Below, piece after piece: positions 3,952 to 23,766 of a DNA stretch of 38,291 nt; the first letter of the stretch is position 1, and each line of letters begins with the position of its first letter. Origin of the DNA: Actinomycetota bacterium. GTDB lineage: Bacteria > Actinomycetota > Thermoleophilia > Gaiellales > Gaiellaceae. A model generated the notes under the pieces. The model had not been told where the DNA came from. It saw nothing but the letters and a program-made list of their open reading frames with translations, and made no database searches. The position numbers and the translations under genes are program-made. The stretch spans positions 1 through 38,291 of the forward strand of contig VAXM01000073.1 in the NCBI GenBank assembly GCA_005883335.1, read 5' to 3'.

Positions 3952-5372
3952 CGGGAGATCGGCTTCCGCAGCACCGGCAGGACGAGCTGGGCCGGGCCGA
4001 GCGAGATCTTCGCCCCGGCCGGCATCGGCAGGTCGAGGTAGAGCAGGTTGTTCGGGTCCTGGGCGAGCGAGTTGGAGGCGAGGGTCAGCGTCAGCGTCGA
4101 GCCGCGCGGAATCAGCGTCGCGTCGTCAATCATCCGGATCGTCAGCGTGTGCGAGCCGCTCATCCCCGAGGTGTTGACCCCGCCCTCGCTGACGACGATC
4201 GTCTTGCCGCGCCGTGGTTTCGCGGTGAGCACCGCGACGAGGCGCGACCAGCCGCCCGAGAGCTTCGCCTTGACGCGGATGCGTGCGGAGCCGAAGGTCT
4301 CGACGCGCGTCCGCAAGCGCCCGCTCGTGCGCTCGCCTTTGCCACGGCCGGGGAACGAGTCCCGGCCGGGGAACGCGACCGTGACGTTCCGCGATGCGGG
4401 CAGCTTCGTGAAGTGATGCGCCTGTCCACCCCACGGGTCCGGCGAGATGTTGATCGGGTATCGGCCCGGTGGGATCGGGCTGTGGGCCAGCCAGCGGCTG
4501 AACCAGCTCTCGCCCTCGGCGACGACCCTTGCCACGTCGGGGCCGGGGAACGTCGAGGGGCCGTGCCCGAAATCGCCGATGTAGAGCTGCTTCGGGCCCT
4601 TCAGGAGCCGGTAGGCCGCCTTCGCCTGGGCCAGGTCGAAGACGAAGTCGCGCCGGCCCTGGAAGAGGTAGACGGGCGTCGTCACCCGGGACAGCTGGGA
4701 GAGGCTCGAGCGCTGCGCCGCCCATGCGCGGAGCACTGAGAGGTTTCGGCTCGCGAGCGCGTCCTGCTCGATCGCCTTCACCGAGGGGTCGAGCCTCGAC
4801 TCGGGCACGGAGCTCAGCAAGCCGTAGATCGCCCCGGACTTCGAGAGGTTCTGCGGTGCGAGCGCGCTGTAGAGGTTGCTCCACGTCTGGACGGTCGCGA
4901 CCGCAGTCCACGGGACGCCTTCGACCAGCGACCGCAGCACGGCGCCGCCGCCGAGCGAGATTCCCCAGGCGCCGATGGCGTGGGGATCGATCTCCGATCG
5001 GCTCGCGAGCCAGTCGTGGACGGCACGCGTGTCGGCGATCTCGCGCGGTCCGTCGACCGAGACGAGCCCGCCTGACTGGCCGTGGCCGCGCGCGTCGAAG
5101 GAAAGGACGGCGAACGTGTCGGCCCACCGCTGGGCGATGAAGTCGACGTCCTGCCGCGAGCCGCCCAGGCCGTGAAGCAGGACGATCGCAGGGAAGCCCT
5201 GCAGCGGCGGATCGCCGTTCGGCTCGTAGAGCGTGGCGCCGAGGTCGACGCCGTCGTCCATGTGCAGCACGAGGTCGTGCCGGGTGAAGGCGGACGCTCG
5301 CCCGGAGGCGACGAGCGCGATCACGCCCGCGACGAGAATCGCGACGACCCGGCGGCCCAAGGGTTCCATCAT
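3948..5372 (-). CDS. alpha/beta hydrolase, CocE/NonD (X-Pro dipeptidyl-peptidase-like) family with C-terminal beta domain
   Basis: VLLHGLGGSRQD, SFDARGHGQSGG, GAWGISLGGGA and a C-terminal beta-rich region; start at 5372 or 5369. Confidence 0.82.
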   Translation of the reverse strand: MMEPLGRRVVAILVAGVIALVASGRASAFTRHDLVLHMDDGVDLGATLYEPNGDPPLQGFPAIVLLHGLGGSRQDVDFIAQRWADTFAVLSFDARGHGQSGGLVSVDGPREIADTRAVHDWLASRSEIDPHAIGAWGISLGGGAVLRSLVEGVPWTAVATVQTWSNLYSALAPQNLSKSGAIYGLLSSVPESRLDPSVKAIEQDALASRNLSVLRAWAAQRSSLSQLSRVTTPVYLFQGRRDFVFDLAQAKAAYRLLKGPKQLYIGDFGHGPSTFPGPDVARVVAEGESWFSRWLAHSPIPPGRYPINISPDPWGGQAHHFTKLPASRNVTVAFPGRDSFPGRGKGERTSGRLRTRVETFGSARIRVKAKLSGGWSRLVAVLTAKPRRGKTIVVSEGGVNTSGMSGSHTLTIRMIDDATLIPRGSTLTLTLASNSLAQDPNNLLYLDLPMPAGAKISLGPAQLVLPVLRKPISR

Positions 5373-5377
5373 AGAAT
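5372..5377 (+). promoter_or_regulatory. candidate -10 box for leaderless murI
   Basis: TAGAAT followed by 6 nt, then the GTG start at 5384. Confidence 0.55.
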
Positions 5378-5383
5378 CGCCCC

Positions 5384-6202
5384 GTGGATTCGCGGCCGGT
5401 CGGGGTCTTCGACTCGGGCGTGGGCGGGCTGACCGTCCTGCACGAGTGTCTCGTGACGATGCCGCACGAGGATTTCGTCTACCTCGGCGACCACGCGCGG
5501 CTCCCGTACGGGCCGCGGCCGCTGGACGAGGTGCGCCGGTTCGCGCACGAGATCGGCGCGTTCCTCGAGGGCCAGGACGTGAAGGTCGTCGTCGTCGCCT
5601 GCAACTCGGCGACCTCGGCTGCCCTGCCGCAGCTCCAGGAGGAGCTCACCGTGCCGGTGGTCGGTGTGATCACGCCCGAGGCGCACGCGGCGGTGCAGGC
5701 GACTCGCAACCGGCGGATCGGCCTGCTGGCGACGCAGGCGACCGTCGAGGCGGGGCGCTACGCGACGCTCGTCCACGATCTCGACGCCGGGGTCGAGCTC
5801 TTCCCGGTCGCGTGCGCGCGCCTGGTCCCGCTGATCGAGAGCGACGACCCGTTCTCAGCACAGACGACCGAGGCCGTGCGCGAGTACGCAGGGCCGCTCA
5901 AGGAGGCGGCGGTCGACACCGTCATTCTCGGCTGCACGCACTATCCGCTGATCCGGCCGATCTTCCAGCGCGTCTTCGGCCGCGACGTGACCCTCGTCTT
6001 CTCGGCAGAGGAGACCGCCCGCGAGGTCGCCGAGACGCTCGCCCGCAAGGGGATCGAGAACGGCGAGGGGCGCGAGGGCAACTACCGGTTCCTGACGACC
6101 GGCGAGCCGTCCCTGTTCCGGGAGCTCGGCGAGCGTTTCCTGCAGCTGCCGCTCGGCGACATCGAGCAGGTGGCGGTCGCGGACCTCGAGTTGGTTCCAT
6201 GA
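5384..6202 (+). CDS. murI: glutamate racemase
   Basis: GVFDSGVGGLTVL, VVACNSATSAALP, VILGCTHYPLI. Confidence 0.97.
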   Translation: MDSRPVGVFDSGVGGLTVLHECLVTMPHEDFVYLGDHARLPYGPRPLDEVRRFAHEIGAFLEGQDVKVVVVACNSATSAALPQLQEELTVPVVGVITPEAHAAVQATRNRRIGLLATQATVEAGRYATLVHDLDAGVELFPVACARLVPLIESDDPFSAQTTEAVREYAGPLKEAAVDTVILGCTHYPLIRPIFQRVFGRDVTLVFSAEETAREVAETLARKGIENGEGREGNYRFLTTGEPSLFRELGERFLQLPLGDIEQVAVADLELVP

Positions 6203-7594: not shown

Positions 7595-8151
7595 AGGTTC
7601 TGCTCGCGTCGCGGAACCGGAACAAGCTGCGGGAGCTCTCGGCGCTGCTTCCCGACTGGGAGCTGGAGCCGCTCGACGCCGAGGACTATCCGCCCGAGAC
7701 CGGGGAGACGTACTACGAAAACGCGCGCGCAAAGGCCCTCTTCGGCCCGGACGACGAGTGGGTCCTGGGCGAGGATTCCGGGCTCGAAGTGGAGGCGCTG
7801 GGCGGGCGGCCGGGAGTTCGCTCGGCTCGCTACGGCGCCGAGGGGACTGAGGCGAACGAACGGCTGCTCGGGGAGCTAGGCGGGGTCGAGGATCGCGCGG
7901 CGCGGTACGTCTGCGAGCTCGTCCTGATCGCCCCTGACCGCCGCGAGCTCCGTGGGACCGGTGTGCTCGAGGGGCAGATCGCGGACGAACCACGGGGGTC
8001 GGAGGGATTCGGCTACGACCCGATCTTCGTGCCCGAAGGCGAGCAGCAGACGGTCGCGGAGCTCGGAAACGAGTGGAAGTCGCGCAACTCACACCGGGCC
8101 CGCGCCGCCCGGGCGCTCTCAGGCCAGGCCCGCAGCCTCCTCGGGCACTGA
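7582..8151 (+). CDS. rdgB: non-canonical purine NTP (XTP/dITP) pyrophosphatase, probable CTG start
   Basis: LKVLLASRNRNKLRELSALLPDW...ETGETYYENARAKA...LGEDSGLEVEALGGRPGVRSARY...EGSEGFGYDPIF-type signature. The only ATG/GTG/TTG start in frame (7789) lies after the conserved N-terminus. CTG 7582 has GGAG 5 nt upstream. Confidence 0.85.
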   Translation: MGGLKVLLASRNRNKLRELSALLPDWELEPLDAEDYPPETGETYYENARAKALFGPDDEWVLGEDSGLEVEALGGRPGVRSARYGAEGTEANERLLGELGGVEDRAARYVCELVLIAPDRRELRGTGVLEGQIADEPRGSEGFGYDPIFVPEGEQQTVAELGNEWKSRNSHRARAARALSGQARSLLGH

Positions 8152-19060: not shown

Positions 19061-20447
19061 TTGCGCCGCTACTTCGGGACCGACGGGGTCCGCGGTGTCG
19101 TCGGCGAGGACCTGACTCCGGAGCTGGTGGAGCGGCTCGGCCGCGCCGCCACGCTGTGGTCGCAAGGAGGCCGCGTCTTCGTCGGGCGCGACACGCGCGG
19201 CTCGGGCCCTGAGCTCGAGGAGGCGTTCGCACGCGGTATCGTCGCGGCGGGCGGCAATGCCGTCCTCGCCGGCGTGCTGCCGACCCCTGCGGTGGCGCTG
19301 CTCGCTCTCGACCTCGGCGCGGTCATCTCCGCCTCGCACAACCCGCCCGAATACAACGGCGTCAAGTTCTTTGACCGGGAAGGCCGCAAGCTGACCGACG
19401 AGGCCGAGGAGGAGATCGAGGCGTTGCTCGACGCGCCGTTCGAGGGCGAGCCCGGCGAGATCGATCACGTCGGCGTCGCGACCGACAGCTACCTCGAGCA
19501 CATCGTCGAGCGGTTCGGCTCGGACCTCAGCGGCCTCGAGGTCGTCGTCGACTGCGCGAACGGCGCCTACACCGGGATCGCGCCGAAGGCCTTCGAGCAG
19601 CTCGGCGCCGAGGTGACGGCGATCGGCTCGGAGCCGGACGGGACGAACATCAACGTCGGCTACGGCGCCACCGACCTCGCGGCCTTGCAAGAAGCTGTTA
19701 CGAGCTCGGGAGCCGACCTGGGGATCGCGTTCGACGGTGACGGCGACCGGCTCGGAGCCGGACGGGACGAACATCAACGTCGGCTACGGCGCCACCGACC
19801 TCGCGGCCTTGCAAGAAGCTGTTACGAGCTCGGGAGCCGACCTGGGGATCGCGTTCGACGGTGACGGCGACCGGATGCTCGCGGTCGACGCCCGCGGCGA
19901 GGTCGTGGACGGCGACCAGATCCTGGCGATCCTGATGCTCCATCTCGACGTCGAGCTCGTCGGGGTGACGGTCATGGCGAACCTCGGGCTCCACCGCCTT
20001 GCCGAGGAGCACGGGGTCCGGGTCGTCACGACGGACGTGGGCGACCGCTACGTGCTGGAGGCGCTGTACCGGGAGGGCGGCCTGCTCGGCGGGGAGCAGT
20101 CCGGCCACCTCATCTACCTGCGCGACCACGTGACCGGCGACGGCCTGGCGGCGGGGCTTCTGCTCTGCGGCGCGCTCGAGGGCCGGACGCTCGAGGAGGC
20201 TGCCGCGCAGATGGAGCGTTTTCCACAGGCGAAGGCGAACGTACGGGCTGCCGTGCGCGAGCTTCCCGAGAGCGTCACCCGAGAAGTCGAGCGGCTGAAT
20301 GCGGAACTCGAGGGGAGAGGCCGGGTTCTGGTGCGCCCGTCCGGAACGGAGCCCGTGATCCGCATCCTCGCGGAGGCCGAAACGGCTGCTGAAGCCGATG
20401 CTGCCTGTGGTACCATCCGCGCTCTCGTGACACGAGAGCTCGGCTGA
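19061..20447 (+). pseudogene. glmM: phosphoglucosamine mutase, reading frame broken by an internal 124-bp tandem duplication
   Basis: ORF 19061..19864 carries RRYFGTDGVRG, ISASHNPPEYNG and DGDGDR, then goes out of frame; ORF 19737..20447 carries the rest (MLAVDARGEVVDGDQIL...RPSGTEPVIRILAEA). Removing one 124-bp unit restores a single frame. Confidence 0.95.
19624..19874 (+). repeat. exact tandem duplication in glmM: 127-bp identity (19624..19750 = 19748..19874), offset 124 bp
   Basis: Base-by-base comparison of CGGCTCGGAGCCGGACGGG...GGTGACGGCGACCGG; copies share 3 bp (CGG) at the junction. Confidence 0.99.
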
Positions 20448-22340: not shown

Positions 22341-23148
22341 TCCGCTCCAGCACGGCCGAGTAGTCCTGCTCGCCGTTGCCGTCTTCGGCGAGCCAGGAGC
22401 GGCCGGCCTCGGTGAGACGGAGGTCGAGGCCTAGCTCGGCGATCAGGTCTGCGTCCTTGCGCGCGAGCCTGAGCGGGAAGCGCGGCGGGTAGTCGTGCGA
22501 CTCCAGGGCGGGGCGGCGGCGCTCCGCCTGGGCGGCGAGGGCGGTGGTGCCGAGGACTTCGAACGCCTTCTCACGCGGGAGGCCGAGCGCATCTGCCAGC
22601 GCGAGCGCCTCGCCCAGTGCGCCGATGATGGTGATCAGCGTCGAGTTGGCGACGAGCTTGGCCGCCGCACCGGAGCCGCTCGGCCCCACGTAGATCGGCT
22701 TTCCCAGAGCTTCGAGGAGCTCGCGCCGGCGTTCGAAGACGTGCTCGTCGCCGCCGACGAAGATCGAGAGCGTGCCCGACTCGGCCTCGCTCAGGCTGCC
22801 GAGGACCGGCGCGTCGAGGACGTCCGCGCGCACGGCCGACCCGAGCCGCTCGATCGCCGCCGGGCCGACGGTCGACATTTCGATCACGGTGGTGTTCTCG
22901 TCCGCGCCGGCAGCGACGCCTTCCGGGCCCTCGGTCACGGCCTGCAGAGCGGGGGGGTCGGCGACCATCGTGATCACGACTTCGGCCCGCGATGCCGCCT
23001 CCGCCGGGCTCTCAGCGATCGGGACACCGAGCGGCTCGGCCTTTGCGGCCGTGCGATTCCAGACGGTCAGCTCGTGCCCTGCGTCGATCAGCCGCCGCGC
23101 GATGCGGCTGCCCATCCCGCCGAGCCCGACGACCGCGACCTTCGCCAC
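22327..23148 (-). CDS. NAD(P)-dependent oxidoreductase, 3-hydroxyisobutyrate dehydrogenase family
   Basis: VAVVGLGGMGSRIARRLIDAGHELTVWNRT...APVLGSLSEAESGTLSIFVGG...GSGAAAKLVANS. Confidence 0.88.
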   Translation of the reverse strand: MAKVAVVGLGGMGSRIARRLIDAGHELTVWNRTAAKAEPLGVPIAESPAEAASRAEVVITMVADPPALQAVTEGPEGVAAGADENTTVIEMSTVGPAAIERLGSAVRADVLDAPVLGSLSEAESGTLSIFVGGDEHVFERRRELLEALGKPIYVGPSGSGAAAKLVANSTLITIIGALGEALALADALGLPREKAFEVLGTTALAAQAERRRPALESHDYPPRFPLRLARKDADLIAELGLDLRLTEAGRSWLAEDGNGEQDYSAVLERITRR

Positions 23149-23166
23149 GCTGCGATCATCCCGGAT

Positions 23167-23766
23167 ATGGGGCTCGGTCACCTGGCTGCCTTCCTGGGCG
23201 TCTCGCTCGTCGTGATCGTCACGCCCGGCCAGGACACGGCCCTGACGATCCGGAACACGCTCACGGCCGGGCGGCGCGGCGGGGTGCTCACCGCGCTCGG
23301 CGTAGTCAGCGGCCAGGTCACGTGGGCAATCGCCGCGAGCGCGGGGCTCTCGGCGGTGCTGCTCGCGTCAAAGCCGGTCTTCACCGCGCTCCGGATCGCA
23401 GGTGCGGCCTATCTCGTCTTCCTCGGCGCGGAGGCGCTGCTCGCGGCGGTGCGCGGTCGGGCCGTGACGGCGAACGAACGGCGACCGCGAGCGACCTATC
23501 GCCAGGGCCTGCTGAGCAACCTCGGCAACCCGAAGATGGTCGTCTTCTTCACCAGCCTCCTGCCGCAGTTCGCCTCATCGTTCGGCGGGATGCTCTCGCT
23601 CGGGCTCGTCTTCGCGGCGATCACGCTCGCGTGGCTGACGCTGTACGCCTTCGCGGTCGCGCGCGCGAGGGCGGTGCTCCTCCGCTCCCGGGTCCGCCGC
23701 GCGCTCGATGCGCTGGCGGGGCTCGTGCTCGTCTCCTTCGGCGTGCGCCTCGCCTCCGAGCGTTAG
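23167..23766 (+). CDS. LysE-family translocator
   Basis: MGLGHLAAFLGVSLVVIVTPGQDTALTIRNTLTAGRRGG...LLSNLGNPKMVVFFTSLLPQF. Confidence 0.9.
   Translation: MGLGHLAAFLGVSLVVIVTPGQDTALTIRNTLTAGRRGGVLTALGVVSGQVTWAIAASAGLSAVLLASKPVFTALRIAGAAYLVFLGAEALLAAVRGRAVTANERRPRATYRQGLLSNLGNPKMVVFFTSLLPQFASSFGGMLSLGLVFAAITLAWLTLYAFAVARARAVLLRSRVRRALDALAGLVLVSFGVRLASER

Follow-up and report, generated by a model that had tools for sequence, protein, structure and literature searches.

Is the exact tandem duplication that interrupts glmM in this metagenome-assembled genome (MAG) a property of the organism, or was it introduced when the genome was assembled? The window analysed here (38,291 nt) is the whole of contig C139, and the genome comprises 2.31 Mb in 185 contigs at 91.7% completeness. 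Comparison of the window with itself showed that positions 19624..19750 and 19748..19874 (+ strand) are identical over 127 bp at an offset of 124, a maximal match that could not be extended, and TRF reported the array at 19612-19874 with a score of 519. Besides this repeat, no repeated 22-mer was found in the whole window. The 124-bp unit is flanked by 15-nt near-repeats, GGTGACGGCGATCGG at 19612 and GGTGACGGCGACCGG at 19736 and 19860, which agree at 14 of 15 positions and would be expected in a single-copy gene also. The repeat reaches 127 bp because the 124-bp period is followed by three bases (CGG) that lie after the near-repeat mismatch. Both the identity and the imperfect direct repeats at these three positions were as the original prediction had described them. 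The glmM repeat is in our view almost certainly a joining error, since its join signature recurs at two other repeats of the genome, and from these sequence comparisons we put the probability of an assembly artefact at roughly 93%.

Because 124 equals 1 modulo 3, the frame opening at 19061 ends at a TGA (19862-19864) after 267 aa, and the 3' part of the gene runs in another frame. From the ORF list and translations, the 5' part (19061..19864, + strand) contains the N-terminal domains through a first DGDGDR motif, followed by out-of-frame residues up to the TGA, and the 3' part (19737..20447, + strand) extends in its native frame from a second copy of this metal loop to the C-terminus. An NCBIfam profile search matched the fragment at 19061-19861 to positions 1-244 of TIGR01455 and the fragment at 19737-20444 to positions 199-439. 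As assembled, glmM is present as two fragments and not as one full-length frame, each fragment scoring under the TIGR01455 cut-off of 447.55 bits, a threshold that intact relatives in the family narrowly miss as well. Removal of one 124-bp unit gave an open frame of 420 aa on translation, which confirmed both the predicted frameshift and the predicted restoration of GlmM by deletion of a unit. The same prediction had placed the DGDGDR loop out of frame with the rest of the gene; the frame break is real, but the motif occurs in both repeat copies, and each part of the gene has one in its own frame, the first belonging to the 5' part and the second to the 3' part.

Profile matches gave the gene order rplM, rpsI, glmM, glmS. 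Ka/Ks against the homologous locus L159 was 0.091/0.516 in the 5' part of the gene and 0.109/0.568 in the 3' part (~0.18-0.19 in both), and these estimates show glmM to be under purifying selection in both halves. A decayed pseudogene was rejected on the low Ka/Ks and on the lack of any lesion other than the repeat.

The glmM region was single-copy in two genomes of the same genus (G001 and G002) and in all 23 loci from other genomes (L159-L181), which were colinear with the one-unit version and gave two overlapping pieces against the assembled version. In 55 of 60 family genomes, GlmM was matched at near full length within a single open frame, most of the remainder giving partial matches, and this genome was the only one of the 60 with profile positions 196-244 twice in tandem. 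A phase-variable gene would be expected to show two states among strains or relatives; the related loci, all from outside the species, showed only the single-copy state, and the duplicated state was not seen among them.

A survey of ~1.55 Mb of the same MAG, about two thirds of it, turned up only three exact tandem duplications of more than 100 bp, with periods of 124, 188 and 383. The 188-bp duplication, on contig C12 (locus L030, 11848-12223), frameshifts a gene that we take, from reading its translation, to encode an ABC transporter ATPase. The 383-bp duplication is on contig C59 (locus L077, 4271-5036), and the two genes flanking it appear whole, presumably encoding a thioesterase-like protein and an M16-like peptidase (translations read by eye). 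Both of these sites were likewise single-copy in G001 and G002, although in principle the two duplications could be real as well. Within 0.87 Mb of control loci we found a 136-bp period with a 143-bp match (L211) and a 246-bp period (L175), of which L211 has an ordinary form, a period plus overhang without a displaced seed. A separate region of the MAG (L150, on contig C132) contained several diverged copies of a 264-bp unit at ~4763-6150, probably a real repeat region, and an inverted repeat near 7638-7720.

The junctions of all three exact duplications in the MAG had the same geometry, a 10-nt match at -15 to -6 and, after it, 5 nt that belong to the left piece and are retained even where none of them matches. 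At glmM the putative right-piece start, GGTGACGGCG|ATCGG, is paired with the left-piece end GGTGACGGCG|ACCGG; the corresponding pairs are ACCGGCTCGC|CGTGT and ACCGGCTCGC|ACGCC at L030, and CTTCTCGCGC|TCGAT and CTTCTCGCGC|CACTC at L077. Beyond the left tail, the right piece continues. The join point in glmM occupies 19736..19750 (+ strand), with the 10-nt match at 19736-19745 and the tail at 19746-19750, and the near-repeat at 19612..19626 (+ strand) is the probable start of the right-hand assembly piece; outside glmM the join points are at 12021-12035 of L030 and 4639-4653 of L077. The 5-nt tail matched the right piece at four of five bases in glmM and at none of five in either L030 or L077, and we know of no documented rule that gives such a tail. 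The chance of a 10-nt match in that place is ~1.6e-5 per junction (64 in 4 million random positions), and the same signature was present at three of three junctions in unrelated loci, as an artefact of joining would produce. It is this identity of form with the L030 and L077 junctions that, on our reading of the sequences, decides for an artefactual origin of the glmM duplication. The exact cut in glmM could fall anywhere from 19747 to 19750.

Since four of the five tail bases match, the glmM junction taken alone would also fit slippage. Bacteria are well known to gain tandem duplications when replication slips from one short direct repeat to another, and here, too, such repeats stand at the unit ends. 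We weighed a real duplication that slippage across the near-repeat had produced in some cells, that segregates in the soil population and that the assembler picked up, and judged it improbable. The near-repeat would be a plausible slippage site already in the single-copy gene, the middle copy has a C at 19747, as left-to-right strand synthesis would keep, and the expected exact match (period plus microhomology) is compatible at glmM with 124 + 3 after the mismatch. At L030 and L077, however, the same expectation gives 188 + 0 and 383 + 0, and these loci share the 10 + 5 geometry with none of five bases paired before the switch, which is not compatible with slippage. Recombination or a slipping polymerase switches inside paired homology and not after five unpaired bases, as precede the switch at two of the three loci. 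Slippage is further disfavoured by the absence of the duplication from every relative in the genus or family that has the region, and by the strong disadvantage expected of a GlmM null in a genome with no second GlmM equivalog among its phosphohexomutase matches. A chimera that arose during library PCR or amplification, by a template switch at the near-repeat, and was retained in a low-coverage consensus would also account for a near-repeat at the junction and for the absence from relatives, but it explains neither the identical 10 + 5 form at three loci of different sequence nor the unmerged contig ends described below, and we regard it as very unlikely.

The assembly artefact has its raw material in this MAG, because contig ends overlap and were left unmerged. 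Exact overlaps were observed for seven pairs of ends, of 161 bp (L029/L023), 153 bp (L156/L137), 151 bp (L136/L083), 131, 101, 96 and 74 bp, and more of the MAG's contigs could be joined at such ends. The two flanks of each of two short N runs (L091, L038) showed no sequence overlap with each other. From the repeat, the join geometry, the other two cases, the unmerged contig ends and the relatives, all of them directly observed, we infer both a joining step and a program responsible for it, one that would accept a 10-nt overlap close to an end. The left piece would have ended at ~19750 and the right piece begun near single-copy position 19612, with a true overlap of ~139 nt, and the two would have been connected during gap closing or end merging through a spurious 10-nt match, 5 nt from the left-piece end. 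The real overlap would have been passed over by this join and so be present twice in the contig. The organism itself most likely has one intact copy of glmM, within the usual order rplM-rpsI-glmM-glmS.

Overlaps written twice at scaffold joins are a described error of metagenome assembly, reported for IDBA-UD and CLC assemblies (PMC7111523). As here, the true overlap of neighbours becomes an exact local duplication; there, Ns remain between the copies, whereas here closure through the 10-nt spurious match left no Ns. The GapFiller description, in the passages drawn on here, gives as the default for gap closure an overlap of at least 10 nt between two extensions (PMC3446322), and the 10-11 nt matched at all three joins correspond to this stated minimum. 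Those passages make no mention of a 5-nt tail, and the gap-size check they describe may have limited such closures. The artefact alternative raised by the original prediction, and its suggestion of a join by way of the 15-nt near-repeat, both gained support from the 10 + 5 form at two further duplications. Its argument that 127 bp reflects an assembler k-mer is not borne out, as the duplications measure 127, 188 and 383 bp and the overlaps 74-161 bp, with no constant length equal to k; k=127 was rejected as the cause.

In the biological alternative, loss and gain of the 124-bp unit would have switched the synthesis of cell-wall precursors reversibly, in the manner of phase variation. Losing one unit would restore the frame, and the genome contains a phosphomannomutase/phosphoglucomutase paralogue (contig C145), a kind of enzyme that can have some phosphoglucosamine mutase activity, as in B. 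subtilis PgcA (PMC6797236); loss of GlmM would not be strictly impossible. However, the unit occurs in no relative, the junction form is common to L030 and L077, and the paralogue is found throughout the family, where relatives pair equivalent second and third matches with an intact glmM, which leaves this genome without any special backup. A literature search on reversible short tandem duplications returned nothing relevant. We give the switch the least credence of all the readings, and scarcely more to a real duplication in which two overlapping fragments of GlmM (19061-19864 and 19737-20447) are made, each with its own metal loop, and reassemble, or in which the locus toggles by unit loss.

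A second GlmM that would make glmM dispensable was considered and rejected. No duplicate of the GlmM equivalog was present among the genome's phosphohexomutase matches, the others being the C145 enzyme and a nucleotidyltransferase-phosphohexomutase fusion on contig C48, and relatives have matching second and third matches. The fusion (L008, 208-2877) reads AFDRAGERL where GlmM has DGDGDR, and its hexomutase half may be inactive because of this replacement.

Read as a joining error, the glmM duplication would be of no biological significance and not a real feature. It does suggest caution wherever a housekeeping gene of a MAG is frameshifted by a short, exact tandem duplication, as a joining error of this type may be recognised without reads when the same junction form recurs where the assembly has further duplications. 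Intact genes come to look like pseudogenes through such errors, and here glmM and the putative ABC transporter ATPase are affected. Elsewhere in the window, the open frame at 22495-23763 had ~240 residues before a LysE/RhtB-like efflux domain, and its true start is probably further in.
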